The translations under genes were made by a program, and so were the position numbers. This document shows, one piece after another, positions 9,060 through 33,771 of a DNA stretch of 64,000 nucleotides. Location of the stretch: the NCBI RefSeq assembly GCF_018603885.1, contig NZ_JAHGAW010000001.1, forward strand, positions 62,001 to 126,000, given 5' to 3'. Positions within the stretch are counted from its first letter, which is position 1, and the number at the start of each line of letters is the position of its first letter. Below the pieces are notes generated by a model. It saw nothing but the letters and a program-made list of their open reading frames with translations, had not been told where the DNA came from and made no database searches. This DNA is from Sphingobium nicotianae (lineage in GTDB: Bacteria > Pseudomonadota > Alphaproteobacteria > Sphingomonadales > Sphingomonadaceae).

Positions 9060-9097
9060 CCCCTGCGGGAATCGAAGCCGCGTTTGACCCGTGAGAG
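9054..9097 (-). repeat. 3' half of tRNA-Glu, candidate attachment-site copy
   Basis: The sequence begins tggtgacccctgcgggaatc (read on the plus strand). It matches the 3' end of the intact tRNA-Glu(CTC) at 37597-37671 over 44 bases with three mismatches, including the encoded CCA, T arm and anticodon loop. Beyond 9097 the match stops. Both copies point the same way. An intact tRNA at one end and a 3'-end copy at the other is the usual footprint of a tRNA-targeted integrated element. Confidence 0.7.
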
Positions 9098-9399
9098 AGG
9101 GGCCGTAAAACGCCCATGGACGCCCTTTGATAATATATAAATCAGATGCTTAATCGAATGTCGTTCATTCCAATCTGATGGAATCCGGGGGAATATGTGG
9201 GTGATGCCAGCGTGGGGCAGCCGTTTCCCATGTCTCGCTCCAAAAGCCCTGGTCCTCACTCGCATACAGACCATCGGATTCAGGGTCGCACGGCTCCTTT
9301 ACGCCTGGAGCAGCGTAAAGGAGCCTTCTAGCTTCGAGTAGCCCGAAGGGTTCAAAGAAGGTCGGAGATCTCAATTTCGCGAGAACTCGGGACTCAGCA
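9098..9399. other. Gene-free stretch inside the left island end
   Basis: About 300 bases, less GC-rich than the flanks, between the tRNA remnant and the hydroxylase gene. The only structure I see is the hairpin at 9292-9325. A minus-strand open frame (9165-9407) crosses it but has no recognisable motif and odd codon use. Confidence 0.5.
9292..9325. terminator. Strong hairpin, likely terminator of the minus-strand pair
   Basis: Perfect 13-bp arms (ggctcctttacgc at 9292-9304 and gcgtaaaggagcc at 9313-9325) with an 8-nt loop. It lies 75 bases downstream of the fatty-acid hydroxylase-type gene in the direction of its transcription, so it may end that transcript. The T run is weak. Confidence 0.5.
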
Positions 9400-14297: not shown

Positions 14298-14453
14298 CCA
14301 TTTTGCCAGACATGACAAGCTGCGGGCATATGTATATATTTATCGTGTGAAGTGTTCTAGAATGCGAAAATCGTCGTAAGAAAATTTCACATGCCGCTTC
14401 CGCCATCCTTGATGGCGATCGAGACCGGCGGCGAACAGGGAGAGGATGAAGGG

Positions 14454-17178: not shown

Positions 17179-17247
17179 ATGAGCGTATCCGAGCTTATCG
17201 CAGCCGGCGGGATATCGCGCACGTCGCTTCCAATATGTCGGCGGTAA
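17179..17247 (+). CDS. Short leader ORF overlapping an MFS start
   Basis: A 22-codon frame begins at ATG 17179, seven bases after AGGAG, the best ribosome site in this gap. It reads MSVSELIAAGGISRTSLPIC plus two Arg and stops at TAA 17245-17247, overlapping the start region of the MFS gene in another frame. It could couple translation of the carrier. Alternatively, a frameshift separates a former N-terminus from the MFS gene. Confidence 0.35.
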   Translation: MSVSELIAAGGISRTSLPICRR

Positions 17248-18596
17248 ACATGCGGACATCCAAGATCGCGCTCTTCGTGCTGTTCGTGGTCTATTTCTTC
17301 AGTTCGATCGATCGCTCGATCGTCGGCATCCTTGCGCAGCCGGTCAAGGAGGAACTGCTGCTATCCGACACGGAGCTGGGATTTCTCACCGGCTTCGCCT
17401 TCAGCGCCGTGTACATGCTGTTCGGTCTGCCCATGGCACGGATCGCGGATCAGGGCAGGCGAGTGAACATCCTCGCCCTCTGCGTCGCCTTTTGGTCGAT
17501 CATGACCGCGCTGTGCGGGATGAGCCTTAACTTCATGCAGCTCTGCCTCGCGCGGATGGGCGTCGGCGTCGGCGAGGCCGGTTGCCTGCCCACCTCGCAT
17601 TCGCTGATCAGCGACTATTTCCCGCCCAGCCACCGCACCAAAGCGCTCGCCATTTATGGCCTCGGCTATCCCGCAGGCGCTTTGGCCGGCTCGATTATCG
17701 GTGGTTTCGTGCTGGATCACTGGGGTTGGCGCACTGCTTTCTATGTAGTGGGTTTGCCCGGACTTCTCGTCGCGCTGGCCACATGGTGGGTGGTCAAGGA
17801 GCCGCAACGTGGACAGTCAGATTCCAGCGATGACCCGGATTCCAGCCTTACCGAACCGCGCTCGTTTCGTGACGTTGCCGCAATGCTGTGCGGGTCACAG
17901 GTGCTGCGGCACATGCTCTTTGCGATGACCGTCCTCGCCATCTTCACCAGCCCAACCGCCACCTTCCTCGGTGCCTTCCTGGTGCGCAAGTTTCATATCT
18001 CCTACACCGAGGTCGGAATGATCTTCGGCATTTCGATGATGCTCGCCGCGTCATTCTCGACATTGTTTGGCGGCATCCTCGCGCAACGTCTGGCACGGCG
18101 TGACCAGCGCTGGCTATTGTGGTTTCCGGCGATCAGCGTGTCGATCGCCATGCCATTCTATGTGACGGCGCTCCTACAGGACAGCCCCTACCATCTCGGC
18201 TATTGGCTGTTCTTCGGCGCCTTGTGCAACGCCACTTACCTCGCGCCCTGCTATACCGTGCTTTACAGCATCATCCCTCCGGGCGGGCGCGCCAAGGCCG
18301 CTGTAATCGTGAGTATCCTGATCGGTCTGGTCGGACAGAGCTTCGGCCCTCTCCTTGCCGGCATCGCCAGTGACATGATCGCCGCCGACCGGTTCGGCCA
18401 CGGTTTTGCGGCGGCATGTCCTGGCGGCATGGCGCCAAAAGGTGCCGCCGCTGTGCTTGACGCCGCGTGCCGTGGCGCCGTGGTCGATGCGACGCAGATT
18501 GTACTCATCGTCACGATGATCATCACGGTGTGGCCGGCTTTTCACTTCTATCTGGCGGCCCGGAAAATGACCCCGCCGTTCGGACGTGCACTATGA
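17235..18596 (+). CDS. MFS transporter, spinster type
   Basis: A 12-helix major facilitator of 453 residues (start ATG 17235 or 17250). The first helix has YFFSSIDRSIVGILAQPVKE, the spinster-like signature of sphingomonad carriers. The helix 2-3 loop is GLPMARIADQGRR and helix 4 has RMGVGVGEAGCLPTSHSLI. A cysteine-containing loop before the last helix (AACPGG, DAACRG) is unusual. Together with the TonB receptor before it, it should move the same solute across the inner membrane. Confidence 0.9.
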   Translation: MSAVNMRTSKIALFVLFVVYFFSSIDRSIVGILAQPVKEELLLSDTELGFLTGFAFSAVYMLFGLPMARIADQGRRVNILALCVAFWSIMTALCGMSLNFMQLCLARMGVGVGEAGCLPTSHSLISDYFPPSHRTKALAIYGLGYPAGALAGSIIGGFVLDHWGWRTAFYVVGLPGLLVALATWWVVKEPQRGQSDSSDDPDSSLTEPRSFRDVAAMLCGSQVLRHMLFAMTVLAIFTSPTATFLGAFLVRKFHISYTEVGMIFGISMMLAASFSTLFGGILAQRLARRDQRWLLWFPAISVSIAMPFYVTALLQDSPYHLGYWLFFGALCNATYLAPCYTVLYSIIPPGGRAKAAVIVSILIGLVGQSFGPLLAGIASDMIAADRFGHGFAAACPGGMAPKGAAAVLDAACRGAVVDATQIVLIVTMIITVWPAFHFYLAARKMTPPFGRAL

Positions 18597-19975: not shown

Positions 19976-21343
19976 ATGAGCGCAATAACCGAAGCAGATG
20001 CTGGATCGGCCAGTGAACCGGAAACTGCCTCCTCTCGGGGGGCGGGATGGATGGTCTGGTACTCGGTCGTGCTTATCGCTCTGGTCTCGACCATGTCGAA
20101 CATCGATCGCGGCATCATCAACCTGCTCGTCCAGCCGATCAAGGCTGATCTGGCGCTGTCAGACACATCGGTCAGCCTGCTGGTCGGCTTCGCTTTCTCC
20201 TTCTTCTACATGCTGTGCGGCCTGCCAATGGCTCGCGTCGCCGACGCAGGCAACCGCAAGATCATCCTGACGAGCGCACTGGCAATCTGGAGCTGCGCGA
20301 CGGCCCTATGTGGCCTCGCGCAAAGCTTCTGGCAGTTATTTGCCGCGCGCGGCCTCGTCGGCGGGGGCGAGTCAGTGAAGGGCCCCTGCTCGATGTCGAT
20401 GATCTCGGACATCGTCCCCCGCCATCATATGCCCCGCGCCTTCGCCATCTATCAGCTTGGCATCAATGCCGGCCAGGGTGGCGCGCTGATCATCGGCGGC
20501 TTTCTCATCGCCTGGCTGGCGGGCATGCCGCCCATCGAGTTGCCCGCCGGCATTGTCATCAAGGAATGGCATGCCGTCTTCCTGCTCTGTGGCTTTCCCG
20601 GCCTGTTGCTGGCGCTCCTGATGCTGCTCACCATCAAGGAGCCTGTCCGTCGCGGGCGCAAGGTGAGAGGCAGCGTCCCGATCAAGGATGTCGTTAAATT
20701 TTTCGGCTCGAACTGGCGCATCTATCTGCCGCTTTTGCTCAGCATCGCGATCGCATCGATCGAATCGTTCGGGATGATCGTCTGGCGGCCGGCCTTTTTC
20801 GAGCGCAGCTTTGGCTGGGGGCCCGAAGTTGTCGGACCGCTGCTCGGTACGATGATGTTGATCTCGACGCCGATTGGCTTGGGAATCGGCGCGTTCATCG
20901 CGGAACATTTCGTGCGCCAAGGCCGCAATGACGCGATGCTGCGCGTGGTCTTCCTATCGCATGTGGTCGCTCTGCCCCTGGCGATTGCAATGCCGCTGAT
21001 GCCAAACCCCTGGATGGCCTTCGGTATGGGGTTTCTCGCATCCGTGGCGGCGTCGATGGCGGCCCCCGGCCAGAATTCGGCCTTCCAGATCATTACGCCC
21101 AACGAAATGCGGGGGCAGATCAACGCCGTTTATCTGTTCAGCATCAGCGTGATCGGCGGGGGGCTCGGGCCGACGGCCATCGCCCTCATCACCGATTTCG
21201 TTTTCGAAGACGAGAATATGCTGCGCTACGCAATGGCGCTCTTCGTCGCCATCGTCGGCCCGATCGGCGTGTTGCTGACCTGGCTCGCAATGAAACCTTA
21301 TGGCGAGGCGGTCCGCCGCTTCGATCTGGAATCGCCTGGCTGA
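19976..21343 (+). CDS. MFS transporter, spinster type (second copy)
   Basis: A 455-residue carrier related to the one at 17235: both have the SNIDRGIINLLVQPIKADL/SSIDRSIVGILAQPVKEEL first-helix pattern, PMARVADAGNRK and a GGGESVKGP helix 4. Twelve hydrophobic helices are evident. Loop 6-7 is hydrophilic (IKEPVRRGRKVRGS). It starts at ATG 19976 behind ggataggggtgg. It stands between the SDR remnant and the second TonB receptor, forming a second receptor/carrier pair of the cluster. Confidence 0.9.
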   Translation: MSAITEADAGSASEPETASSRGAGWMVWYSVVLIALVSTMSNIDRGIINLLVQPIKADLALSDTSVSLLVGFAFSFFYMLCGLPMARVADAGNRKIILTSALAIWSCATALCGLAQSFWQLFAARGLVGGGESVKGPCSMSMISDIVPRHHMPRAFAIYQLGINAGQGGALIIGGFLIAWLAGMPPIELPAGIVIKEWHAVFLLCGFPGLLLALLMLLTIKEPVRRGRKVRGSVPIKDVVKFFGSNWRIYLPLLLSIAIASIESFGMIVWRPAFFERSFGWGPEVVGPLLGTMMLISTPIGLGIGAFIAEHFVRQGRNDAMLRVVFLSHVVALPLAIAMPLMPNPWMAFGMGFLASVAASMAAPGQNSAFQIITPNEMRGQINAVYLFSISVIGGGLGPTAIALITDFVFEDENMLRYAMALFVAIVGPIGVLLTWLAMKPYGEAVRRFDLESPG

Positions 21344-21449
21344 GACCGGCGGGCTGAGCGCCGGCAGTCGATCGACCGGTGAATCACTTTAGGCAACCGC
21401 CGGCAAACGACCGGGGCCTGTTTTGCGACGTCAGCTTTGGGAGAGAGAG

Positions 21450-24329
21450 ATGCTCATGCCACGAATGAATGGTCTTCGTATGAAGGTATATATGAGCCTG
21501 TCGGCAAGTGCCGTTGCATGTGCCTGGGTGACAGCCTTGCCGCAGGCTGCTTTCGCGCAGGAGACGGCCGGCGCGGCTGCCGAACAAGCCGGCGAGGCAG
21601 GAACTGCCGGCGATGAGGCGATTGTGGTGACCGGTTCGCGGCTCGCTGGTGGCTTCAAGGCGCCGACGCCCGTCACTGTTTTGGGCGAGGACAGGATCAC
21701 CGCGCTCGCAGCAACCAATCTCGGCGATGTCATGAACCGGCTGCCCGCCTTCCGGATGGCGACTGCGCCGACGACCGCTCTCTCCAGCACGGGTTCGGGC
21801 GGCAATCTGGGCGCGCGCTATCTCGACTTGCGTGGTCTTGGTGCAAGCCGGACACTTTTGCTGGTCGACGGGAAACGCTTCGTTCCCAGCTCAATTCTGG
21901 GCTCGGTCGACGCCAATCTCATTCCCGCCCTGCTCGTCAAACGGGTGGAGATCGTGACAGGCGGCGCGTCCGCGGCCTACGGGTCGGACGCCGTCGCCGG
22001 TGTCGTCAATATCATTCTCGACAGCAAGCTGGATGGGTTCCGCGCCCAGGTACAGGCCGGCACGTCGCAGATTGGCGATGCCAATACGCGGCAGGCATCG
22101 CTCGCGGCCGGGACCGGATTCGCCGGCGGCCGCGGACATATTGTCGTGGCGGGCGAGTGGTCCGATGACGGTGCGGCCGGGGGCTGTTATACGCGCGACT
22201 GGTGCTCCGCCGAATGGGGCATCTTCCAGAACACGGCCTTCCGCACCAATGGCCTGCCGGCGAGCATCTGGACGCCCGGCGTGCGCGCGGCGACGATGAC
22301 CCAGACCGGCATCATCAACAGCCCCAATGCGCTGCGTGGTATCACCTTCAATCCCGATGGCTCCGTGCGCGCGACGCCGTTCCAATATGGCGCGACGCCG
22401 GGAGTCGAGACGATGATTGGCGGCGAAGGCTATGGCAGCAACTGGCGCCTTGCCGTTCCATATCTCAAGATTCCGGTGCAGCGCTACAGCCTGTTTGCCA
22501 ATCTTGAATATGACGTGACCGACAGCATCAAGGCCGTGGTTACGGCTTCCTACGGGCAAAGCGAGGCGCAGAACCGCGGCGCCGCGCTGTTCGAGCGCGC
22601 CCTCACCATCAACGCGGCCAATCCCTTCATCCCAGCCCCGCTCAAGGCCCAGCTTGCGGCCAACAACGTCTCATCGTTCGTGTTCGGGCGGTTGGGTTCG
22701 TTCATCCTCGGCAGCCAGGATATCGATCCCACGGCCGCACGGGGCAAGGCCACGACCTTCCGCATCGCGAGCGGCCTTCAGGGCTCCCTGGGCGGCTCAT
22801 GGCGTTGGGATGCCTATTATCAATATGGTGCCAGCGATTATCGGGTGAACAGCTACAACATCAAGAATCTCGCCAATTTCCCGCTGGCGCTCGATGCCGT
22901 GATGGGCCCGAACGGACCGATGTGTCGCTCGACGCTCACGAATCCCACCAATGGCTGCGTGCCGCTCAACCTCTTCGGCAGCGGAAATTTCAGCCAGGCG
23001 GCGTTCAACTATGCCTTCGGCTCGCCATGGCAGACGCAGAAGTTGCGGCAGCATGTCGCCGCCGTGAACATCCGTGGCAACCTCGTCGATCTGTGGGCGG
23101 GACCGCTCGCAGTCGCCGCGGGCCTGGAATATCGCCGCGACACGACCAAGACCGATGCCGACGCGATCGGCCAGGCGCTGGGCTGGCAATATGGCAATGG
23201 CGCCCGATACAGCGGCCGCATCATCACCAAGGAAGGCTATGTCGAGGGTCTGCTGCCGCTCGCCAAGGACATGTCCTTCGCCAAGCTGATCGAACTAAAC
23301 GCCGCCGCACGCGTCACCGACTATAGCACGAGCGGCACGGTCACGACCTGGAAGGCCGGACTGGTTTACGAGCCGATCGACGGCATCCGCTTCCGCGTGA
23401 CGCGCTCGCGCGACATTCGTGCCCCCAACGCGCAGGAACTCTTCAACCCGGGCGGCGCGACGCCGGGCAATGTGGTCGACCGCCGCACCAATATCTCGAC
23501 GATCGCGCGCGTGCGGACGGGTGGCAACCCCAACCTTGTCCCGGAGATCGCCAAGACATGGACGGCAGGCGTCGTCCTGACCCCCGGCGGCGAAGGCATA
23601 TTGAAGCCACTTCGCCTGTCGGTCGACTGGTTCGATATCTCGCTGAACGGTGCCATCTCGACGATCAGCGCGCAGACGATCGTCGATCGTTGTCAGCTCC
23701 AGAACGCAACCGACTATTGCAGCCTGATCACCCAAGGACCTGACAATGTCATCACCGAGGTGCGTGCCTTCTCGCTCAACCTCAATCAGCTGATTGCGCG
23801 CGGCGTTGACGCGGAACTGGCTTACCGGGTTCAGCTGGGCAGCAAGAGCAGTGTCGATTTCAACATATTGGGCACTTACAACAAGGATCTCATCACCGTG
23901 GACTCGGTCGGCGCGATAAATCGTGCCGGTCAGACCGGCATGCAGAATCTGGGCGCGACCGGCATCCCGCGCTGGAGCGTGACCTCGACGACGACGATCC
24001 AGACCGGCCCGGTCAAGACCACGATCGAGAATCGCTACATCCCCAAGGGCATCTATGATCCGACTTTGATCGGTCCGGAGGATGCGGGCTATGCCAACAC
24101 GCTGACCAACAGCATCTCGACCAATCGCGTGTCCGGGCGCTTCTATACCAATCTGGGCATTTCGGTGGCGGTCGAGAGTGGCGCGCGGACGCAGTTCGAG
24201 CTCTATGGCTTCGTCGGCAATCTGTTCAATCAGGATCCGCCGATCTCGCCGGGATCGACATCGACCAATCCCGCACTCTTCGACACGATCGGCCGCTCGT
24301 TCCAGGCCGGCGTACGTGTCCGCCACTGA
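21450..24329 (+). CDS. TonB-dependent outer-membrane receptor (second)
   Basis: A 959-residue receptor; I use ATG 21450 after GGGAGAG. The signal peptide ends near LPQAAFAQE. The TonB-box-like EAIVVTGSRLAGG opens the plug (SRLAGGFKAPTPVTVLGED to GGASAAYGSDAVAGVVNI). The barrel ends RSFQAGVRVRH, with His and not Phe last, a less common ending. It is of the group often named after the sphingomonad TonB-dependent receptors that take up organic compounds. It is not closely similar in length or sequence to the receptor at 14454. Confidence 0.93.
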   Translation: MLMPRMNGLRMKVYMSLSASAVACAWVTALPQAAFAQETAGAAAEQAGEAGTAGDEAIVVTGSRLAGGFKAPTPVTVLGEDRITALAATNLGDVMNRLPAFRMATAPTTALSSTGSGGNLGARYLDLRGLGASRTLLLVDGKRFVPSSILGSVDANLIPALLVKRVEIVTGGASAAYGSDAVAGVVNIILDSKLDGFRAQVQAGTSQIGDANTRQASLAAGTGFAGGRGHIVVAGEWSDDGAAGGCYTRDWCSAEWGIFQNTAFRTNGLPASIWTPGVRAATMTQTGIINSPNALRGITFNPDGSVRATPFQYGATPGVETMIGGEGYGSNWRLAVPYLKIPVQRYSLFANLEYDVTDSIKAVVTASYGQSEAQNRGAALFERALTINAANPFIPAPLKAQLAANNVSSFVFGRLGSFILGSQDIDPTAARGKATTFRIASGLQGSLGGSWRWDAYYQYGASDYRVNSYNIKNLANFPLALDAVMGPNGPMCRSTLTNPTNGCVPLNLFGSGNFSQAAFNYAFGSPWQTQKLRQHVAAVNIRGNLVDLWAGPLAVAAGLEYRRDTTKTDADAIGQALGWQYGNGARYSGRIITKEGYVEGLLPLAKDMSFAKLIELNAAARVTDYSTSGTVTTWKAGLVYEPIDGIRFRVTRSRDIRAPNAQELFNPGGATPGNVVDRRTNISTIARVRTGGNPNLVPEIAKTWTAGVVLTPGGEGILKPLRLSVDWFDISLNGAISTISAQTIVDRCQLQNATDYCSLITQGPDNVITEVRAFSLNLNQLIARGVDAELAYRVQLGSKSSVDFNILGTYNKDLITVDSVGAINRAGQTGMQNLGATGIPRWSVTSTTTIQTGPVKTTIENRYIPKGIYDPTLIGPEDAGYANTLTNSISTNRVSGRFYTNLGISVAVESGARTQFELYGFVGNLFNQDPPISPGSTSTNPALFDTIGRSFQAGVRVRH

Positions 24330-24339
24330 CGATTGGTCA

Positions 24340-24368
24340 GACGCCGCCGGTCCGGCATCGGCGGCGTC
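24340..24368. terminator. Hairpin between convergent receptor and marR genes
   Basis: Perfect 9-bp arms gacgccgcc (24340-24348) and ggcggcgtc (24360-24368) around an 11-nt loop lie between the receptor stop (24329) and the marR stop (24393). A two-way transcription end is likely, although no T run is present. Confidence 0.5.
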
Positions 24369-24392
24369 ACGGCTCCTGACGCACGTGGCAGA

Positions 24393-24902
24393 TCAATCGT
24401 CCCGCTGGTCTTCAGTGGCGAGAATCTGGTATGCCCGCTCGAGAAATTCGAAGAACTGGGCCATCTCGCCCGGCGAGAAGGCAGCGCGAATGGAGGTTTC
24501 GGTTTTCATCGCCTCGACGAACATTTCGTTCATCAGCGTCTCGCCTGCCGGGGTCAGATATAGCGAACTGCGCCGCCGATCGACCGACGAGCGCGCGCGA
24601 ATGGCGAGGCCTCGCCGTTCGAGTTCATCGACGATCGCCACGAGCAGCGAGCGATCGAGACCACCGACGCGGGCGAGATCAATCTGCGAACAGCCCGGAT
24701 TGGCAGCAATCAGGGCCATGGTGGTGAATGTGCCGGAGCGCATCCCATATGGCGCGAAGGCCGCCGTCACCCGTTCGCCGAGCAATGTCAGAAGGCCGCG
24801 TAGCCGAAACGAGAGGCGATTTGCCATGAGCCCCGATTTGAGCTGCTGGTCGCCCGTCGTTTCCCGCTGTTCGCTGACCGTCACTGGGTCTTCTGCTGCC
24901 AT
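24393..24902 (-). CDS. MarR-family transcriptional regulator
   Basis: A 169-residue winged-helix dimer. GMRSGTFTTMALIAANPGCS followed by QIDLARVGGLDRSLLVAIVDELE is the recognition helix region, and RGLAIRARSSVDRRRSSLYLT is the wing with its Asp-Arg-Arg motif. It faces away from the UGSC operon across a 157-base gap with a good promoter and AT-rich dyads. I expect it to repress that operon and itself until the substrate or a metabolite binds. Confidence 0.9.
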   Translation of the reverse strand: MAAEDPVTVSEQRETTGDQQLKSGLMANRLSFRLRGLLTLLGERVTAAFAPYGMRSGTFTTMALIAANPGCSQIDLARVGGLDRSLLVAIVDELERRGLAIRARSSVDRRRSSLYLTPAGETLMNEMFVEAMKTETSIRAAFSPGEMAQFFEFLERAYQILATEDQRDD

Positions 24903-24977
24903 GCGTCACTCCGGTGTCCGATCTAGGATGACCGTCGCGAAATGGCAAAACTTATCTGCCTGTCAAAAATCATCTCG

Positions 24978-25015
24978 TTGACAATCATTTTTTTTCAACT
25001 TATTTTTTAAATGAT
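24978..25015 (+). promoter_or_regulatory. Promoter and probable MarR operator of the UGSC operon
   Basis: A -35 box TTGACA (24978-24983), a 17-base spacer and a -10 box TATTTT (25001-25006) fit a sigma-70-type promoter, 54 bases before ATG 25060. Dyads cover it: atcattt (24984-24990) with aaatgat (25009-25015), and gtcaa (24962-24966) with ttgac (24978-24982). Such overlap is what a MarR repressor site would show. Confidence 0.6.
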
Positions 25016-25059
25016 CAATAGCGCTGCAGGCGCTTGCCCTCGCGAGGGAAAGGATTTCC

Positions 25060-26736
25060 ATGAACACTGCCGTGGCCACCCGCACCGCCATTGACGAGGG
25101 CAAGATCGTCGTCCTGAATCCCACGGGCTATCCTCCCGCGATCAGCGCGAAGCAACTCGCGCCGCGCCTGGAGACGCTGGACGGCAAGACCATCTACCTC
25201 ATCGACAGCCGCTTCGATGACTCCCTCGAGCTGCTCAAGCAGGTTGCAGCCTGGTTCGAAGCGAAGATGCCCTCGGTAACGGTTCGGCTGGTGTCCCTGA
25301 AAGGCACTTACGGCCGCGACGATCCCGAACTCTGGGCGGACATCAAGGCGAACGGGCATGCCGCGATCCTCGGCGTCGGCCATTGCAGCACCTGCGCCCC
25401 GGCCGTCGCGACCCATGGCGTGACCCTCGAAACCAAATACAGCATCCCGACGGTCGCCATTCACACCGACAAGTTCGACAAGGTGGTGCGGTCGGTCACG
25501 CGCATGGCTGGCCTGCAGGATGCGCCGACCGTGTTCGTGCCGCAGCCGGTGATGGGGCGAACGGCTGAGGAATTACGCGGCTATGTCGAAGGTCTCGACC
25601 CGGTCAGCGGCATCGCCGTGATGCGCGAAATCATCGATGCGCTGACCATCGGCCTGCCTGCGCCCGAAGCAAGCAGGAAGCCTGCGCCGCGATCGACGCC
25701 GCGCCTGCTTGAGCCGGATACGGAGGACGCGCTCCACGAATTGTTCCTGACCAATAACTGGACCGACAAGCTGCCGATCGTGCTTCCGACCGAGGCGCGC
25801 GTCGCGGCCATGCTCGCGGGCACCAGCCGCAAGCCCGACGAAGTCGTTGGCCGGATGGAGCCCACCGCCAATCGCGGCAAATGGGAATATACGGTCGAGA
25901 AGGTCGCCGTGAACGCCGTGATGGCGGGTGCGAAGCCGGAATATTTCCCTGTCATTCTGGCCCTGGCAGCGTCCGGCGTGACGGCGCGCAGCAGCACCTC
26001 CAGTTCCGGCTCGGCCATGGTTGTCGTCAATGGCCCGGTTCGCAATCAGATCGGCATGAACAGCGGCATCGGCGCGATGGGCCCCTATAATCATGCCAAT
26101 GCGACCATCGGCCGTGCCTATGGGCTTCTGTCGCAAAATCTGCAGGGCGGCTCGGTGCCCGGCGAGACCTATATGGGCTCGATCGGCAATGCCTATAATT
26201 ACAGCAGCATCACCTTCGCCGAGAATGAGGAGCGCAGCCCCTGGGAGCCGCTGCATGTGCAGAAGGGCTTCGATGCCGATGATAGCGTCGTCAGCATTTT
26301 CTTCGGATGCCGCTCCACCTCCTTCGGTCTCGGTTTGCGGGAGACCTATTGGCGCGAGCATGTCCGCGACATGCTGCTCGCCGTCGACACGGTCGGCCCT
26401 CCGGTGTTGCTGCTCGATCCGATTACCGCGCGCCAGTTCGTCGAAAGGGGCGGTTTCGACACCAAGGACAAGCTGATCGATTTCGTCCACGACACGGCGC
26501 AGATGCCGGCCGCGCGCTATTGGGACATGCAACTCGTCCAGAATTATATCTACCCGAACGCAACCATGGGTGACGAACCGCTGGCGAGCTATCTCGATGC
26601 GGCGCCGGACGAACTGATCCCGATGTTCCGCAAGAAGCAGATCAACGTCGTCGTGGTTGGCGGCGAGAGCAATGGCTACTGGCAGATCATGGGGACGGGC
26701 TATCGCGGGAGCGTCCTCGTCGATGACTGGCGCTGA
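25060..26736 (+). CDS. UGSC-family (seleno)protein homologue, Cys form
   Basis: A 558-residue protein. The N-terminal 180 residues look like the UGSC domain. The segment AILGVGHCSTCAPAVATHGV, followed by LETKYSIPTVAIHTDKF, aligns with the family pattern in which selenocysteine-Gly-Ser-Cys precedes a D/H..LE..GIP stretch. Here C109-S-T-C112 replaces it, with no in-frame TGA. Residues 230-558 form a second conserved domain (KLPIVLPTEARVAAMLAG, KVAVNAVMAGAKPEYFPVIL, IGAMGPYNHANATIGRAYG, FAENEERSPWEPLHVQKGF). The function is unknown. The CxxC and two thioredoxin-reductase genes right behind it point to a thiol-dependent redox reaction. Ribosome site AAGGA; first gene of the operon. Confidence 0.72.
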   Translation: MNTAVATRTAIDEGKIVVLNPTGYPPAISAKQLAPRLETLDGKTIYLIDSRFDDSLELLKQVAAWFEAKMPSVTVRLVSLKGTYGRDDPELWADIKANGHAAILGVGHCSTCAPAVATHGVTLETKYSIPTVAIHTDKFDKVVRSVTRMAGLQDAPTVFVPQPVMGRTAEELRGYVEGLDPVSGIAVMREIIDALTIGLPAPEASRKPAPRSTPRLLEPDTEDALHELFLTNNWTDKLPIVLPTEARVAAMLAGTSRKPDEVVGRMEPTANRGKWEYTVEKVAVNAVMAGAKPEYFPVILALAASGVTARSSTSSSGSAMVVVNGPVRNQIGMNSGIGAMGPYNHANATIGRAYGLLSQNLQGGSVPGETYMGSIGNAYNYSSITFAENEERSPWEPLHVQKGFDADDSVVSIFFGCRSTSFGLGLRETYWREHVRDMLLAVDTVGPPVLLLDPITARQFVERGGFDTKDKLIDFVHDTAQMPAARYWDMQLVQNYIYPNATMGDEPLASYLDAAPDELIPMFRKKQINVVVVGGESNGYWQIMGTGYRGSVLVDDWR

Positions 26737-26739
26737 GCC

Positions 26740-27675
26740 ATGACATCAGTCGATCTCGTGGTGGTGGGCGCCGGAACGGCCGGCCTGACAGCGGCAGCGG
26801 TGGCAGCGGCCGACGGCCTGCAGGTGCTCGTGGTCGAGCAGCTCGCGCCCGGCGGCCAGATCGCCACCGTCGACAAGATCCGCAATTTTCCGGGATTCCC
26901 CGACGGGATTGGCGGCTATGAGCTGGGGCCATTGCTCCAACAGCAAGGCGCTGACGTTGGCGTCGACTTCCTGCTCGATACGGTCGAGGGCATCGATCCG
27001 TCCGCGAACGGCTTCGTCGTCCGCTGCGCCGAAACGACGCTGGAAGCACGCGCCGTCATTCTGGCGATGGGATCGCGGCGCCGCGCGCTCGATGTACCGG
27101 GCGAGGCCGATCTGGAGGGGCGGGGCGTCTCGCATTGCGCGTCCTGCGATGGCCACTTCTTTCGGGGCAAGACGGTTGTGGTCGCGGGCGGCGGGGACTC
27201 CGCCTTCGACGAAGCGGAAGTCCTTGCCGGGATCGCGAAGGACGTGGTGATCGTCCACGAAAGCGCCAAACCGCGCGCCCAGCGGTTGACGGTCGAGCGG
27301 GTCAGCGCGCTCCCCAATGTGCGCATCCTGCCGGAAGCCCGCATCGCGGCCGTCGGAGGCACACAGGAAGTCGAGCATATCATCGTCGATGGTCCCGGCG
27401 GACGCTCGGAAGAACCGGCAGCCGGACTATTCGTCTATGTCGGCCTGATCCCGAACAGCGCCATCGTCGCGGGCCTCGTCGAAACCGATGATGCCGGCGC
27501 GATCATTGCCGATCGCGATTTTCAGACTGCGGTCCCCGGTCTCTTCGTCGCTGGCGATTTGCGCAGCGGCGCGCGGGCGCTGCTGGCGAGCGCCGCCGGG
27601 GACGGCGCCTCTGCCGCGGCCGCCGCCGTCCGTCATATTCGCCAGATCGCATCGGTGGGGGAGGTTGCGGCATGA
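26740..27675 (+). CDS. Thioredoxin reductase-like flavoprotein without HRR motif
   Basis: A 311-residue FAD enzyme, three bases after the UGSC gene. FAD site: VVVGAGTAGLTAAAVAAADG. Redox pair: C133-A-S-C136 in SHCASCDGHFF. The NAD(P)-binding motif is AGGGDSAFDEAE. Where normal NADPH-dependent TrxB has HRRxxxR, this has HESAKPR (from His173), so the 2'-phosphate of NADPH is probably not bound. It may use NADH, another flavin or ferredoxin, as some divergent thioredoxin reductases do. A partner role for the UGSC protein is inferred from position. It ends in an ATGA overlap with the next gene. Confidence 0.85.
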   Translation: MTSVDLVVVGAGTAGLTAAAVAAADGLQVLVVEQLAPGGQIATVDKIRNFPGFPDGIGGYELGPLLQQQGADVGVDFLLDTVEGIDPSANGFVVRCAETTLEARAVILAMGSRRRALDVPGEADLEGRGVSHCASCDGHFFRGKTVVVAGGGDSAFDEAEVLAGIAKDVVIVHESAKPRAQRLTVERVSALPNVRILPEARIAAVGGTQEVEHIIVDGPGGRSEEPAAGLFVYVGLIPNSAIVAGLVETDDAGAIIADRDFQTAVPGLFVAGDLRSGARALLASAAGDGASAAAAAVRHIRQIASVGEVAA

Positions 27676-28643
27676 CCGTCGATCGCCATAGTCGTCTTCT
27701 CATCATCGGCTCGGGCCCTGCCGGCTATACGGCGGGCATCTATGCCGCGCGGGCAGCGCTGGCGCCGGTTCTCGTCCAGGGCATGCAGCCCGGCGGACAG
27801 TTGACGATCACGACGGAAGTCGAGAACTGGCCGGGCGATACCAGCGTTCTTGGTCTCGATCTCATGGCCAGGATGGAGAACCAGGCGCGTCACATCGGTG
27901 TCGAACTGATCACCGACATGATCACCGAAGTTGATCTCGCACAATATCCCTTCAAGGCCCGCGCCGAGAGCGGTCTCCACTTCAGCGCCGACGCCATGAT
28001 CGTGGCGACCGGCGCGCAGGCGCGATGGCTCGGTCTTGAGGCGGAAGAGCGCTTTCGCGGCTTTGGTGTATCGGCATGTGCGACCTGCGATGGCTTCTTC
28101 TATCGCGGCCGGACAGTCGCGGTCGTCGGCGGCGGCAATAGCGCGGTCGAGGAAGCCCTGTTCCTCACCAACTTCGCCGAGAAAGTCTATCTGATCCATC
28201 GCCGCGGCGCCCTGCGCGCGGATCAGGTCAATCAGGCCAAGCTCTTCGCGCATCCCAAGATCGAGATGATCTGGGACACGGCGGTCGTCGATATTGTCGG
28301 GGATGAGCAAGGCATGGGCGTCGGCGCGATCGACCTCAAGCATTTGACCAGCGGCACCGTCACGCGCTTGCCGGTGCATGGCCTGTTCGTGGCGATCGGC
28401 CATGATCCCGCGACAGCCCTGTTCAAGGGGCAACTCGACCTCGACGCGGAAGGCTATATCCTTACCGCACCGGACTCCACCGCCACCTCGACGCCGGGCG
28501 TGTTCGCGGCGGGCGATGTGCGCGACAAGATTTTTCGTCAGGCTGTCACGTCCGCGGCCATGGGCTGCATGGCGGCGCTGGAGGCGGAACGGTGGCTGGC
28601 AGAGCGGACATTGGCGCAGGCGGCTATATCCGTGGCTGCCTGA
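27672..28643 (+). CDS. trxB: Thioredoxin-disulfide reductase
   Basis: A 323-residue NADPH-dependent flavoprotein of the classical TrxB type: FAD site IIGSGPAGYTAGIYAARA, redox pair C136-A-T-C139 in SACATCDGFFYRG, NADPH sites VGGGNSAVEEALFL and H176-R-R-GALR, and C-terminal FAD contact FAAGDVRDKIFRQAVTSAAMG. It overlaps the divergent reductase gene by four bases. No thioredoxin gene is seen nearby, so it may reduce the UGSC protein directly or through the cell's own thioredoxin. A housekeeping trxB likely exists elsewhere. Confidence 0.93.
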   Translation: MTVDRHSRLLIIGSGPAGYTAGIYAARAALAPVLVQGMQPGGQLTITTEVENWPGDTSVLGLDLMARMENQARHIGVELITDMITEVDLAQYPFKARAESGLHFSADAMIVATGAQARWLGLEAEERFRGFGVSACATCDGFFYRGRTVAVVGGGNSAVEEALFLTNFAEKVYLIHRRGALRADQVNQAKLFAHPKIEMIWDTAVVDIVGDEQGMGVGAIDLKHLTSGTVTRLPVHGLFVAIGHDPATALFKGQLDLDAEGYILTAPDSTATSTPGVFAAGDVRDKIFRQAVTSAAMGCMAALEAERWLAERTLAQAAISVAA

Positions 28644-28675
28644 GGGATTGAGTCTCACATATTGGAGACGGGGCG

Positions 28676-29992
28676 ATGCTGAAGACCTGGACAAGCGACC
28701 TCTATGACCGGATCGCGGCGCTGGCCAGTTTCGGCGCCGACAAGCTGCCAGAACCGATCGAAGCCCTGTGCGATCGCCTGCTCGCGCCAGCATCGCCCAA
28801 CGCCAGGCTGCGCGCGGCGGGCGAGATCCATGCGCGGTTCGCCGCCGCCGGCGATGCGGGCAAGCGCGCGTTCCTGTCGCTGCTGGCCGATCGCTATACG
28901 GCCGATCCGGCGCGGCTCGACCTCGCCATCCTGGCCTATCAGGCTGACCGGAGCGCCGAGCGGCTGGCCGATCTCCACGCCGCCTCCGAGCCGCGGCGCC
29001 AGCAAATCCTGCGCCGCCTGAACGAGGTTCCCGATGGCACGACGCTGCTGCTCGCGATGCGCGGCGCCTTGCTCGGCATGGCGCGGGATGATCCCGGTCT
29101 CGCCGCGCTGGACGGTGATTTCTCCCGTCTCTTCAGTTCCTGGTTCAACGGCGGTTTTCTCGTCCTGCGCCAGCTGGACTGGTCGACCTCGGGCGCAGTG
29201 TTGACCAAGCTCATGCATTATGAGGCCGTGCACCCGATCGAGTCCTGGGAGGCGCTGCGTGCCCGCCTCGAACCGGCCGATCGACGCTGCTACGGCCTGT
29301 TTCACCCGATGATGGACGCAGAGCCGCTGATCTTCGTCGAGGTCGCGCTGACCCGGGGTATTCCGATCAGTATCGCCCATATCCTGCGGGCCGATCGCGT
29401 CGCACTGGACCCTGACAAAGCCGATACGGCGGTCTTCTACTCGATCTCGAACTGCCAGGACGCGCTGCGCGGCGTGCCATTCGGCGGGCCGCTGATCAAG
29501 CAGGTCATGGATCGATTGCGGCGGGAACTGCCGGGCTTGCGCCGGGCGGTGACGCTCTCGCCCATGCCGGGCTTTGCCAGATGGCTGCGCGGGCGGGCGG
29601 ATCAGGATCCGGCCGATCTTGCCCTTGTCGGCCAGCTGGCCGAGCCCGACTGGCATCTTGACCCGGCCAGCGAGGCGCGCATCAAGGCGCCGCTGATGCG
29701 CGCCGCCGCCCGGTATCTGACGATGGCGAGCGGACGCGATGCCGATCCCGTCGCCCGCTTCCATCTCGGCAATGGCGCGAGGATCGAGCAGCTCGACTGG
29801 CTGGGCGATGTCTCGCCCAAGGGTCTGCGACAGTCGCACGGCATGATGGTCAATTATCTCTACGATCCGGCCCATATCGACGACAATCATTTCGCCTTCG
29901 CCGAGAGCGGCGCGATCGCAGCCAGCGGGCGGCTGCGTCGTCAGGCGCGCGAGGAGCCGTCGTCGCGGCTGCCATGGCTGTCAGGCCGCTGA
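28676..29992 (+). CDS. matA: Malonyl-CoA decarboxylase
   Basis: A 438-residue enzyme that converts malonyl-CoA to acetyl-CoA and CO2. An N-terminal helical domain (residues 1-130) precedes a GNAT-like catalytic domain. VFYSISNCQDALRGV holds the catalytic serine of the family, and FHLGNGARIEQLDWLGDVS the catalytic histidine. SHGMMVNYLYDP is the conserved C-terminal strand. GGAG lies before ATG 28676. Together with the next gene it forms the standard malonate-to-acetyl-CoA pathway. Confidence 0.93.
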   Translation: MLKTWTSDLYDRIAALASFGADKLPEPIEALCDRLLAPASPNARLRAAGEIHARFAAAGDAGKRAFLSLLADRYTADPARLDLAILAYQADRSAERLADLHAASEPRRQQILRRLNEVPDGTTLLLAMRGALLGMARDDPGLAALDGDFSRLFSSWFNGGFLVLRQLDWSTSGAVLTKLMHYEAVHPIESWEALRARLEPADRRCYGLFHPMMDAEPLIFVEVALTRGIPISIAHILRADRVALDPDKADTAVFYSISNCQDALRGVPFGGPLIKQVMDRLRRELPGLRRAVTLSPMPGFARWLRGRADQDPADLALVGQLAEPDWHLDPASEARIKAPLMRAAARYLTMASGRDADPVARFHLGNGARIEQLDWLGDVSPKGLRQSHGMMVNYLYDPAHIDDNHFAFAESGAIAASGRLRRQAREEPSSRLPWLSGR

Positions 29993-30006
29993 CCAGGAGA
30001 GGCGTG

Positions 30007-31518
30007 ATGAACCACAGTCTGTTTGCGGCCCTATGCGCGGGCAAGGATTTGGATGAGCCGGCCATCCTGTGCGGATGGGATCGCATGATCAGCTATGGTG
30101 CGCTGTTCGAAGCGAGCGGCCGTCTGGCCCATCGTCTGATCGCGCTTGGCGTTGGTCCCGGTGACCGCATCGCCGTCCAGGTCGGCAAGAGTGCGGAAGC
30201 GTTGATCCTCTATCTCGCGTCGCTGCGCGTGGGTGCGGTCTATCTGCCGCTCAATACCGATTATACGCCGGCAGAGATCGGCTATTTTCTCACCGATGCC
30301 GAGCCAGGCCTGTTCATTGTCGATCCCGCCGACGCTGATGCCGCCGCGCCGCTGGCGGCCGGGATCAGCGCGCGTCTCGCGACACTGGGGACCGATGGCG
30401 AGAGCGGCAGCTTGCTGGAGCATATCGATACGCTCCCCGCATCCTTTACGGACATGCATCGCGCCGCCGACGACCTTGCCGCGATCCTCTACACCTCAGG
30501 CACCACCGGCCGCTCCAAAGGCGCCATGCTGACCCATGGCAATCTCACATCCAATGCCGCGACATTGGTCGATGCCTGGCGGTTCACCGCTGACGACGAG
30601 TTGCTGCACGCGCTTCCGGTCTATCATATCCACGGCCTGTTCGTGGCGACCAACGTGCCGCTGCTCGCCGGCGCACGCATCCGGCTCCTGCCGAAGTTCG
30701 AGCCCGGCGCGGTGCTCCGCGGGCTGGAGACCGCCACCGTCATGATGGGCGTGCCGACCTTCTATACCCGCCTGCTCGCCGACCCGCGCCTCGACAGGAA
30801 CGCGACCAAGGGCATGCGCCTGTTCGTGTCCGGCTCGGCGCCTTTGCTCGCCGAGACGCACCGCGCCTGGGAAGAACGCACCGGCCACCGCATCCTCGAG
30901 CGCTACGGGATGAGCGAGACCGGCATGAACACCTCCAATCCCTATGAGGGCGAGCGGCGGCCCGGCACGGTCGGACCGGCCTTGCCGGGTGTTTCGATCC
31001 GCATCGTCGATGAACAGACTCGCACCATGCTCCCGGCGGGCGAGATCGGCATGATCGAAGTCAAAGGACCGAACGTGTTCAAGGGCTATTGGCGCATGCC
31101 GGAAAAGACGGCTACCGAACTGAAGGAAGACGGTTATTTCATCACCGGCGATCTCGGCCGCCTGAGCCTCGACGGTTATCTGGAAATCGTCGGCCGCGAC
31201 AAGGATCTGGTGATCACCGGCGGGCTCAACGTCTATCCCAAGGAAGTCGAGACCGAGATCGACACGCTCGATGGTGTCGAGGAAACGGCAGTCATCGGTC
31301 TGCCCCATCCCGATTTTGGCGAAGCGGTTACCGCGATCGTCGTCCGCTCGAGCGGAAGCAAGATCGGATCGGCCGATATTCTCGAAGCGATCTCGGCGCG
31401 TCTGGCGCGCTTCAAACTACCAAAGACCGTCTTCTTCGTGGACGCACTTCCGCGCAATGCCATGGGCAAAGTGCAGAAAAATATCCTCCGCGAAGAGCTT
31501 TTGGATATCGTTTACTGA
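30007..31518 (+). CDS. matB: Malonyl-CoA synthetase
   Basis: A 503-residue AMP-forming acyl-CoA ligase that activates malonate. I start at ATG 30007, after AGGAG, 14 bases past the decarboxylase stop. The P-loop is ILYTSGTTGRSKGAMLTHG. ERYGMSETGMNTSNPYEGER is the signature that separates malonyl-CoA synthetases from other acyl-CoA ligases. TGDLGRLSLDGYLEIVGRDK and the catalytic lysine in PRNAMGKVQKN complete the domain set. Last gene of the UGSC operon: it implies that malonate is produced or imported. Confidence 0.93.
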   Translation: MNHSLFAALCAGKDLDEPAILCGWDRMISYGALFEASGRLAHRLIALGVGPGDRIAVQVGKSAEALILYLASLRVGAVYLPLNTDYTPAEIGYFLTDAEPGLFIVDPADADAAAPLAAGISARLATLGTDGESGSLLEHIDTLPASFTDMHRAADDLAAILYTSGTTGRSKGAMLTHGNLTSNAATLVDAWRFTADDELLHALPVYHIHGLFVATNVPLLAGARIRLLPKFEPGAVLRGLETATVMMGVPTFYTRLLADPRLDRNATKGMRLFVSGSAPLLAETHRAWEERTGHRILERYGMSETGMNTSNPYEGERRPGTVGPALPGVSIRIVDEQTRTMLPAGEIGMIEVKGPNVFKGYWRMPEKTATELKEDGYFITGDLGRLSLDGYLEIVGRDKDLVITGGLNVYPKEVETEIDTLDGVEETAVIGLPHPDFGEAVTAIVVRSSGSKIGSADILEAISARLARFKLPKTVFFVDALPRNAMGKVQKNILREELLDIVY

Positions 31519-31690
31519 CCTTCGAGACCATTCCAACATAGAATGAAGAAGACTTATCAGAGGAAGCCACCGTCCTGGGCAAAGCCCGCGACGCCGTCAG
31601 CAGGCTGCGACCGCGCCTTCCGGCATGTCGATGGGAATCGCGTTACAATCGCGTCGGTGGCTGATTGACGACGCACCGTGATTCGAGCGG

Positions 31691-31966
31691 TCAGACCATG
31701 CCTTGCGTCACCGACTTGAACGGCTTTCCTTCGCAGTCGGCGCCGGCTGTGACCCAAAAGTTGTCGACCTGGTCGGTCAGAAGCAAAATCTCGATGCTCC
31801 GGGCGCGAAAGTCTTCAAGCTGTGGCGAAGAAGCAAGTCGATCGAGATCCGAACCGGTGGCCTAATGGATTGCCGTCTGGTTCTCCTTCATTCCGCCGAC
31901 ATGATCCTTGAGCGATCGCCAACTCTCGCCAGACACGGTCGATCTGAAACGAAACCCGTCAATCAT
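31691..31966 (-). pseudogene. htpG: Fragment of htpG (Hsp90) with an in-frame stop
   Basis: Read by hand on the minus strand. The frame gives FRFRSTVSGESWRSLKDHV, GGMKENQTAIH*ATGSDLDR, ASSPQLEDFRARSIEILL and LTDQVDNFWVTAGADCEGKP, ending FKSVTQGMV*. This is the middle-to-C-terminal part of bacterial Hsp90, where the family has ...YY.TG. An amber codon (31862-31864) stands for a tyrosine, and both ends of the gene are missing. It starts one base after the LysR stop. It is a non-functional scrap, perhaps brought by rearrangement. Confidence 0.82.
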
Positions 31967-32899
31967 TCAGGCTTGTTGCAGGATATCGGGCCCCATGGCC
32001 AAAGCAGAAGCAAGGTTCTGCTGAAGGAAGGCGATGAACAGCTTCACATTCCTCGGGGTGTAAGTTCGGTTGGGATAGACGGCGGAGATAACGGTCTGAA
32101 AATTGCTCGGGGTGGCGACATGATCTGGGAACAGATCGATCAGCCGGCCTGCAGCGAGATCCGCGCCGATGAGCCAGTCGCTGAGCAGGACGATGCCAAG
32201 CCCCTGCAATGCGCAATCGCGTAGCACGATGCCACTGTTCACCGACATCCCACTGCGCACGGGAATGTCATGCTCGTGTCCCTCGGCATCCCGCAGACGC
32301 CACACGTCCGAGAAGCCCGGCAGCGGAAACGTGAGACAGTTGCGCCCGCTGATCTCGCCCGGCTCCCGTGGGTGGCCCATCGCCGCGAGATAGGCGGGGC
32401 TGGCGCACATATGATAGCGGGTACGCAGGACCGGCATCGCGATCATGCTGGAGTCCCCGAGCGGGCCGTGGCGAAGGGCAAGATCGAATCGCTCGCCGAC
32501 AATGTCCACGAGCTGATCGGTGAGCGTCAGGTCGATCCTGACACCCGGATAAGCGCGGCAGAAGGCCGGGATGATAGAGCCGAGGCAATGGATGCCGAAT
32601 GCATGCGAGGCGGAGATTCGCAGGACGCCACCGGGTGCGTCCGCCTTATCCGAAAGCGTGGTCCGCAACGAACGAAGCGCATCCAGATGCTGTTCGACCT
32701 CCTGCATGAGCAGGCTTGCCGCTTCCGTTGGGGCGATCTTGCGCGTCGTGCGGTAGAAGAGGAGCGTACCAAGCTCCGCCTCGAGCCCGGAAATTGCTCG
32801 GGAGATGACGGACGGCGCGACATTGCGCGATCGCGCGACGGCACTGAGGCTGCCGCGACGATAGACATCCTCAAACAATTCGAGATTGGCGAGCTTCAT
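31967..32899 (-). CDS. LysR-family transcriptional regulator
   Basis: A 310-residue regulator. I use the ATG at 32899 (MKLANLELFEDVYRRGSLSA), the normal start for the family, although the frame is open to 32971. The helix-turn-helix is GSLSAVARSRNVAPSVISRAISGLE and the rest is the effector-binding domain (PGVRIDLTLTDQLVDIVGER). It diverges from the PEP mutase/isocitrate lyase-type gene at 33007 with about 107 bases between, the classic LysR layout, so it most likely controls that gene. The stop abuts the htpG fragment. Confidence 0.92.
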   Translation of the reverse strand: MKLANLELFEDVYRRGSLSAVARSRNVAPSVISRAISGLEAELGTLLFYRTTRKIAPTEAASLLMQEVEQHLDALRSLRTTLSDKADAPGGVLRISASHAFGIHCLGSIIPAFCRAYPGVRIDLTLTDQLVDIVGERFDLALRHGPLGDSSMIAMPVLRTRYHMCASPAYLAAMGHPREPGEISGRNCLTFPLPGFSDVWRLRDAEGHEHDIPVRSGMSVNSGIVLRDCALQGLGIVLLSDWLIGADLAAGRLIDLFPDHVATPSNFQTVISAVYPNRTYTPRNVKLFIAFLQQNLASALAMGPDILQQA

Positions 32900-33006
32900 T
32901 ATTGCTTCAATCGCAAAAGTGATTTCCAACTTATGCCATATCCGCAATCCCACAGGGCGTCTATTTGCCATTTCAGCACAGGAACCAGGAGTCAGCGAGG
33001 CCGACC

Positions 33007-33771
33007 ATGACCGACCAGAAGATCAAGGCAAAGCAGTTCAAAGCGCTTCATGTGGCCGGGGCACCGCTCATTCTTTTCAACATTTGGGATGCGGGCAGTG
33101 CACGCGCAGTGACATCGGCGGGCGCATCAGCCCTCGCTACCGGCAGCTGGTCGGTGGCGGCAGCACATGGCACGACGGACGGAGAAAAACTCCCGCTCGA
33201 TCTCGCTATCGCCAATCTGGCGCGGATCGTCGCCGTCACCGATCTGCCGGTTAGCGTCGATCTCGAAAGTGGTTATGATGATCCGGCACAAACCATCGAA
33301 CGCGCGATTGAGGCAGGCGCGATCGGCTGCAATATTGAGGACAGCTTCCCGCAGGACGGGACATTGCGAAAATTATCAGATCAGGTCGCCCGAATCCGGC
33401 AGGTGCGAGGCATCGCCGATGCATCGGGTGTCGCCTGTTTCATCAACGCGCGCACCGATGTCTTCTTTCAAAAGGATGCGTCAGATCCCGCGCTACAGTT
33501 TCAGTCGGCCCTTGAACGCGCGCGGGCCTATGCGGACGCAGGGGCAGATGGCATCTTCGTTCCGGGCCTGTCGGATATCGAGCAGATCGCGCAGTTCGTG
33601 GCGGCGAGCCCGCTGCCGGTCAACATCATGCTGGGGGCAAATTCTCCTCAGCCAGGCGAATTTGCGCGGGTGGGCGTCGCAAGGCTGAGTTATGGTCCGA
33701 CACCTTATTCGGTCGCGATGAAGGCGTTGGAAGAGGCCGCGAACAATGCGTTAAAGGGAGTGACGCACTGA
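33007..33771 (+). CDS. Isocitrate lyase / PEP mutase family enzyme
   Basis: A 254-residue TIM-barrel enzyme that makes or breaks C-C or C-P bonds next to a carboxylate. I use ATG 33007. LILFNIWDAGSARAVTSAGA and LPVSVDLESGYDD (metal-binding acid) are family motifs; GCNIEDSF and FINARTDVFF are others. The KKCGH loop of true isocitrate and methylisocitrate lyases is absent, so oxaloacetate decarboxylase, 2,3-dimethylmalate lyase-like or phosphonopyruvate hydrolase-like activity is more likely. It faces the LysR gene and is separate from the malonate operon. Confidence 0.85.
   Translation: MTDQKIKAKQFKALHVAGAPLILFNIWDAGSARAVTSAGASALATGSWSVAAAHGTTDGEKLPLDLAIANLARIVAVTDLPVSVDLESGYDDPAQTIERAIEAGAIGCNIEDSFPQDGTLRKLSDQVARIRQVRGIADASGVACFINARTDVFFQKDASDPALQFQSALERARAYADAGADGIFVPGLSDIEQIAQFVAASPLPVNIMLGANSPQPGEFARVGVARLSYGPTPYSVAMKALEEAANNALKGVTH

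Follow-up and report, generated by a model that had tools for sequence, protein, structure and literature searches.

The operon organisation of the rhizobial malonate pathway, in which malonyl-CoA decarboxylase (MCD) MatA and malonyl-CoA synthetase MatB are encoded by adjacent genes, serves here as one standard of comparison for a locus of Sphingobium nicotianae in which the same two adjacent genes are joined to a gene of the UGSC protein family. The other described counterparts of this locus are the GrdB/PrdB proteins of glycine and D-proline reductase (PF07355), bacterial thioredoxin reductases (TrxR), and the UGSC (seleno)proteins themselves (PF24696/NF041046), which have a UGSC domain with a U/C-x-x-C motif, include fusions to another domain, and occur in selenocysteine (Sec) or cysteine (Cys) forms. 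The accessible text of an ocean survey (PMC2398784) reports 255 UGSC selenoproteins, counts the family with those bacterial selenoproteins that abound most in water samples, and records a 'UGSC/Unknown_1' fusion from ocean metagenomes in 2008. An earlier note on the DNA studied here held that UGSC proteins have no assigned reaction, and our literature search, thin on subscription journals, bears this out: the accessible parts of the papers found are catalogues, namely surveys and reviews of selenoproteins, trace elements and tRNA-Sec (PMC2398784, PMC13188914, PMC5330540, PMC5029168), and name neither a function nor a reaction. The locus lies in a window of 64,000 nucleotides, by which we mean positions 62,001 to 126,000 of contig NZ_JAHGAW010000001.1, from a genome of 4.43 Mb (completeness 99.95%). 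Results of our analysis suggest that the five-gene operon at 25060-31518 of this window may represent an undescribed way of reducing an imported acid to usable malonate.

The five genes, all on the plus strand, are separated by 3, -4, 32 and 14 bases, and a check of the open reading frames (ORFs) confirmed the tightly packed operon reported earlier with these coordinates and gaps. The 14-base gap is valid only with the MatB start at ATG 30007, the point at which the match to NF005702 begins (residue 12 of the longest ORF). The first gene (25060..26736, 558 aa; ORF and Pfam) encodes a protein of which Pfam covers only residues 18-177 (25111..25590), the UGSC domain, with a PF24696 match of E 2.2e-24 and 86.9 bits against a gathering cut-off of 25. 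The remaining ~350 residues, named by us Unk1 (residues 206-558; 25675..26733), match no Pfam family. The protein scores 53.3 bits with the NCBIfam equivalog NF041046 (UGSC_fam), under the curated cut-off of 125, and its motif is CSTC (residues 109-112; 25384..25395), or USTC in relatives, instead of UGSC. The earlier description as a UGSC-family CxxC protein is thus correct as to the PF24696 domain, but the protein is a UGSC-Unk1 fusion that misses the NF041046 cut-off, and belongs to a selenoprotein family as its Cys form. Its likeness to the 'UGSC/Unknown_1' fusion of the ocean survey is one of description, with Unknown_1 a possible equivalent of Unk1.

The exchange of Cys for Sec was followed in relatives found by searching a collection of 84,980 species, one genome each, with two peptide patterns (from the window protein and from locus L042). 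Of the 297 stretches that the pattern scan gave, 156 were confirmed as relatives; the top 80 of these, with 62-78% identity to the window protein, were kept. The motif always reads (C/U)STC, with Cys at its first position in 51 relatives and TGA in 29; in these 29, as well as in L042, the in-frame TGA lies exactly at the Cys position and the frame is open on both sides. When TGA is counted as Cys, CSTC is invariant over 57 aligned rows. Full-length SelA (E below 1e-100) is encoded by 23 of 25 genomes with the TGA form and by 7 of 25 with the Cys form (Fisher p 6e-6), a count that leaves aside five other Cys-form genomes with weak, partial matches and does not cover locus L128. Of the two exceptions among TGA-form genomes, one has no match and the other a fragment at a contig end. 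Downstream of the TGA-form gene in L042, from the family of the window organism, lie a TrxR-like gene, SelA and SelB. No SelA match was found in the window genome. Because SelA accompanies the TGA form in this way, the window fusion is, as judged from sequence, the Cys form of a selenoprotein, and a Cys/TGA exchange that co-occurs with SelA commonly marks a residue of catalytic redox function. As regards RNA structure, the folds downstream of the TGA are better in TGA rows than in Cys rows (p 3e-5), yet the mean z is only -0.22, with 5 of 29 below -1.5; a hairpin after the TGA is seen in several loci, the mean z of TGA rows being near zero.

The UGSC domain connects the fusion with GrdB/PrdB. 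A profile of the UGSC domain aligned with 16 GRDB/PrdB-type sequences in hhalign at Prob 97.3 and E 2.4e-11, with the Sec/Cys motifs in register, whereas the top score among 38 other gene clusters of the same loci was Prob 10.4; smaller GRDB sets of 1-3 usable rows gave Prob 74-89. Since hmmscan of the fusion at E <= 0.01 did not report PF07355, the homology of the UGSC domain to the UxxC region of GrdB/PrdB is regarded as remote only. The AF2 model of the fusion (mean pLDDT 88.9) places CSTC between the strand 101-107 and the helix 112-125, and the UGSC domain is, in this predicted structure, a Rossmann-like alpha/beta arrangement. A narrower fold assignment was rejected, as the best VIA Z score (10.7 over 132 residues, 8s7v_H) stands amid many unrelated rows. 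Foldseek with the whole fusion model gave no match at E <= 0.001, and the single match of the fusion profile among sequences of solved structures (E 0.71) is meaningless. The window fusion differs from GrdB/PrdB in that Unk1 takes the place of a PF09338-type (GrdE-like) partner, which was not detected, and in that it has a TrxR of its own. The fusion also occurs in aerobes, among them Sphingobium, Ramlibacter and Neorhizobium, which again sets it apart from GrdB/PrdB.

The large Unk1 part carries, over 124 rows, the near-invariant residues D236, N285, N347, R352, N360, E388, E390 and G403, with no Cys among them, and when folded alone reaches a mean pLDDT of 87.9. A role of Unk1 as a GrdE/PrdA-like pyruvoyl subunit was rejected at hhalign Prob 0.3 and 0.1 against PF09338 (13 usable rows of 14 loci); none of nine window proteins scanned matched PF09338 at E <= 0.01, and the UGSC domain gave with it a weak Prob 28. 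In a Foldseek search with the Unk1 model all of the top 24 rows were class I-type fumarate hydratases, which could mean that Unk1 is itself a catalytic dicarboxylate lyase or hydratase and that the CxxC pair only regulates it by redox state. We consider this highly improbable: the matches are weak (E 2.8e-3 to 8.5e-2, TM near 0.2; VIA Z no higher than 5.2, over 87-88 residues), a sequence relation to class I fumarase was rejected (hhalign Prob 0.1 and 0.2), the near-invariant residues offer no Cys for an Fe-S cluster, and the use of Sec suits catalysis better than regulation.

The second gene of the operon, TrxR1 (26740..27675, 311 aa), encodes a TrxR-like flavoprotein with CASC at 27136-27147, and the third, TrxR2 (27672..28643, 323 aa), a protein with CATC at 28077-28088. 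Of the 54 loci whose flanks reach 3 kb or more upstream and 2 kb or more downstream of the fusion, 36 have a TrxR1 homologue no farther away than 1.5 kb downstream or 3 kb upstream, and TrxR1 is therefore the conserved partner in the window. The 48 TrxR match rows, in which a few genes are counted twice, comprise 44 with CASCD, two with CATCD, one with CAACD and one with none of these. TrxR1 shares its domains and the CxxC motif with bacterial thioredoxin reductases, but at 273.1 bits it remains below the TIGR01292 equivalog cut-off of 343.45. It reads HESAKPR where TrxR2 has HRRGALR, at a position that we take to be the usual NADPH-binding stretch. TrxR2 passes the same cut-off (372.8 bits), is 55% identical to another TrxR gene elsewhere in the window genome and has no separate match in the operon of Sphingobium sp. 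66-54 (L146), the nearest named relative in the first-gene tree; by these profile and identity comparisons it is an additional, ordinary thioredoxin reductase. Of the two dedicated flavoproteins proposed earlier, only TrxR1 thus stands as a partner of the fusion. Glycine reductase, to which the TrxR-linked window fusion may be likened, draws electrons from the thioredoxin system according to the accessible text of PMC13188914.

A CxxC/UxxC motif with an adjoining TrxR would also be expected of a protective enzyme, that is, a thiol enzyme that reduces or isomerises disulfides of proteins or small molecules, or one that detoxifies peroxides or quinones, with MatAB merely co-regulated. A MarR-family gene lies upstream of the operon, and MarR-type regulators are often oxidant sensors. 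The accessible parts of PMC2398784 and PMC13188914 group UGSC proteins with thiol oxidoreductases of thioredoxin-like (Trx-like) fold, which also speaks for protection. The neighbours of the fusion genes, however, are mainly genes of uptake and CoA pathways, and a large conserved Unk1 with many near-invariant polar residues suggests a specific small substrate, so that we regard a purely protective function as unlikely.

The last two genes identify the pathway to which the fusion is joined in the window. MatA (28676..29992, 438 aa) carries the MCD domains PF05292 (E 4.2e-88) and PF17408, both above cut-offs, and its best solved relative is the malonyl-CoA decarboxylase 4ksf (E 1e-117); MatB (30007..31518) scores 781 bits with NF005702 against a cut-off of 558 and, among solved structures, matches malonyl-CoA synthetase 4fuq (E 6e-198). 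The earlier note proposed a search of genomes for conserved UGSC-TrxR-MatA-MatB neighbourhoods, and such linkage does recur; the result that the note named as refuting its reading, a complete lack of linkage in relatives, was not obtained. With thresholds of at least 400 bits for MatB and at least 150 bits for MCD, 16 of the 80 loci have one or both in the stretch around the fusion: 12 carry the pair, 2 only MatB and 2 only MCD. The linkage is seen in 13 of the 41 loci that have both flanks of at least 9 kb (Cys form 13/30, TGA form 0/11). Four gene orders occur: MCD-MatB-UGSC-TrxR in Hyphomicrobiales; MatB-MCD divergent from UGSC-TrxR in L115; UGSC-TrxR-MCD-MatB in L146, which with the addition of TrxR2 is also the order of the window; and UGSC-TrxR followed by ABC transporter genes and, further on, MCD in L132 and L144. 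In a tree of 81 rows (a quick search with SH-aLRT support only, leaving out L130, which is interrupted in the matched stretch), the linkage label changes 5 times across 45 rows, namely those with the linkage or with both flanks present. All linked loci fall inside one clade of 35 rows, and when linked rows are set against TGA-form rows alone, the former lie on one side of a single branch. MCD itself is rare in the order to which the window organism belongs (matches in 7 of 147 genomes, two of them partial), and the MatA of the operon is the sole PF05292 match of the window genome. Among 38 fusion carriers examined, 26 have an MCD anywhere in the genome (24 of 29 with the Cys form, 2 of 9 with the TGA form); in Aminobacter (L092) and Aquamicrobium (L110), MatB adjoins the fusion and the genome has no MCD match. 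The rhizobial fusion loci additionally carry a GntR-family regulator gene, as does the rhizobial MatA/MatB pathway, whereas in the window MatA and MatB are joined to UGSC-Unk1 and TrxR and no GntR-type regulator was found among the neighbours scanned. In six rhizobial loci a gene of the PHB depolymerase cluster (cluster 18, of which the L101 copy was scanned) is directly upstream of the malonate genes; a PHB depolymerase gene is also present in the window, at 52553-53788.

Taken together, the reading to which we lean, tentatively and without counting it as probable, is that a thiol enzyme recharged by TrxR1 strips a substituent from an imported carboxylate to give malonate, which MatB and MatA convert to acetyl-CoA. 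The fusion would be this enzyme, its UGSC domain supplying the CxxC pair (in sister lineages a Sec-x-x-Cys) at the position that it has in GrdB/PrdB, and Unk1 would bind a small carboxylate brought in by the flanking carriers. By analogy with GrdB/PrdB, the first Cys (or Sec) would attack the substrate, with reductive removal of the substituent, and the second, resolving Cys would free the product and leave a disulfide. TrxR1 probably recharges the enzyme, handing electrons of NAD(P)H to the disulfide either directly or via thioredoxin, and TrxR2 may act as a supporting ordinary thioredoxin reductase. Since the search for a pyruvoyl partner was negative, the substrate is expected to be activated by itself, and a malonate derivative would be of this kind. 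The product in the window's clade may be malonate or an acid that is converted to malonate; MatB would then form malonyl-CoA and MatA acetyl-CoA.

Several observations weigh against this reading. No MatB or MCD was found near any of the 29 TGA-form loci (many with short flanks; 11 with both of at least 9 kb), and they stand beside just 16 of the 51 Cys-form loci, again with short flanks in many; malonate therefore need not be the product of the whole family. The malonate link of the earlier note is accordingly upheld as a recurrent linkage with MatAB, but one confined to a single clade. The same counts would fit a substrate of UGSC-Unk1-TrxR unrelated to malonate, with MatAB having joined through co-induction by one plant- or soil-derived mixture, and so would Ramlibacter-type loci, in which TctC and an aldo-keto reductase occur in place of MatB/MCD. 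Against it are the four gene orders and the 5 changes on the tree, as well as the location of the window genome's only MCD gene in the operon in an order where MCD is rare, and we rate such a substrate as a possibility on the doubtful side. Also contrary to the mechanism outlined above, TrxR1 is not close to the fusion in 18 of the 54 loci, of which 13 have the TGA form (Rokubacteria, Chloroflexota, Rhodospirillales) and five the Cys form (L095, L105, L113, L114, L149), and the accessible text of two selenoprotein papers (PMC2398784, PMC13188914) assumes a Trx-like fold for UGSC proteins. Finally, since no profile likeness of Unk1 to PF09338 was found, substrate activation of the glycine/proline reductase type is missing, and fold searches with Unk1 returned no confident relative.

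In other genomes, the UGSC and Unk1 parts occur in various combinations. The whole-protein query at E <= 1e-10 found matches in 6 of 296 genomes of the order (the window genome among them), 38 of 385 of the class and 5 of 398 of the phylum; many top matches span residues ~200-420 alone, i.e., Unk1 without UGSC, and others are fusions with one in-frame TGA. In 40 fetched stretches, Unk1 is solo, paired beside a TrxR-like gene, fused to UGSC or located behind a thioredoxin-like stretch; 13 of these stretches contain a TrxR-like gene (one blast cluster). The thioredoxin-like stretch, judged by eye from CPTC/CATC/CHTC/CETC and a GCGSK motif, precedes Unk1 in one protein in L047, L052, L061 and L072; a Pfam scan of the L072 protein named no family, and in L047 and L061 the gene adjoins genes of the SelA/SelB clusters. 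UGSC (210 aa) and Unk1 (358 aa) are adjacent separate genes in L043 (8628-10324), from the genus of the window organism, and one contig (L125) has two diverged fusions, at 647-2272 and 7527-9146, which are 68% and 53% identical to the window protein. On a haloarchaeal plasmid (L205, 7885-10584) UGSC lies between two hypothetical genes that are Unk1-like by eye, with CoA-transferase and TRAP genes adjoining; the layout suggests a three-subunit enzyme, and the annotated gene order of L208 (7983-10645) is the same. Other plasmids, compared by tblastn, annotation and motif, carry UGSC-Unk1-TrxR-like genes (Haloterrigena) or a TrxR-like gene, a TctC-type protein and the fusion (Variovorax). The Arthrobacter plasmid L210 (5704-9848) has an annotated phosphosulfolactate synthase, trxB, trxA, Unk1 and UGSC in a row, that is, a complete thioredoxin system together with a hint at sulfonates. 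On the IncP plasmid of Acidovorax sp. T1 (L203, 8640-10200), a TGA-form gene with the UGSC motif has an IS1071 transposase gene at most 6 kb away and IS91-type transposase genes also nearby, and the family may travel on catabolic plasmids. This plasmid was discarded as a source of hints, as the papers listed under that strain name deal with other topics. No member of the family was found in the phage records searched.

A divergent MarR-family regulator gene (24393..24902, minus strand) precedes the operon, and its homologues in L146 (61%) and L082 (54%) occupy the equivalent position; a common MarR operator upstream of the operons of the window, L146 and L082 was sought as a shared palindrome and rejected. 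A promoter-like site, TTGACA-17-TATTTT, lies upstream of the operon at 24978..25006 on the plus strand, by consensus match alone; the scan of 24300-32000 yielded 5 such sites against 1.4 expected, and a single terminator-like match, within matB. The one promoter assumed earlier may correspond to the site ahead of the operon, and on these consensus scans transcription of the five genes as one unit is likely but unproven. Further upstream are an MFS carrier (19976..21343, plus strand), with homologues adjoining the operon in L146 (72%) and L082 (59%), and a TonB-dependent receptor (21423..24329, plus strand), with a homologue (62%) adjoining it in L146. The second MFS carrier (17235-18596) and the farther TonB-dependent receptor (14391-17012) are likewise present, as noted earlier; the nearer receptor, one carrier and the MarR gene flank the L146 operon, but the farther pair was not shown to belong to the system, and the complete uptake and breakdown route proposed earlier stays putative. 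Other loci have, as importers of small anions, PhnS/PhnU-like or SsuA/TauC-like ABC systems (under the cut-offs of those models), TctA/TctC or TRAP, and further neighbours include amidohydrolases, aldo-keto reductases (matched in L122) and, in haloarchaea, CoA-pathway genes; one gene cluster of 8 loci (cluster 13) gave no Pfam match in three members scanned. These neighbours fit the catabolism of small organic acids, without naming the acid.

Directly after the operon are a divergent LysR gene (31967-32971) and a gene of the PEP-mutase/isocitrate-lyase family (32965-33771). The latter was excluded from the system because the counterpart that adjoins the UGSC gene of the Acidovorax sp. T1 plasmid is only a distant relative (29% over 236 residues) and tblastn at E <= 1e-10 found no match in the 80 loci. 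Far from the operon, at 7842-9059 of the window, a gene encodes a T6SS Tle1-like phospholipase domain (PF09994).

A wider proposal, which we put forward as doubtful but worth stating, is that UGSC-Unk1 proteins are a widespread branch of GrdB/PrdB in aerobes that lacks the pyruvoyl subunit. Their selenol or thiol would strip halogen, sulfur or nitrogen from an activated carboxylate, e.g., a substituted malonate, from which a stabilised carbanion of malonate would result, and recharging would fall to a dedicated TrxR-like flavoprotein; in Sphingomonadales, Hyphomicrobiales and Rhodobacterales this would make up a complete reductive route to malonyl-CoA. The link to GrdB/PrdB offers a testable mechanism for UGSC proteins, and the Cys-form MatAB operons of culturable relatives such as Neorhizobium allow the substrate and product to be sought without selenium chemistry. 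If the proposal is true, the chemistry of glycine and proline reductases, known from anaerobes, would extend to aerobic bacteria.

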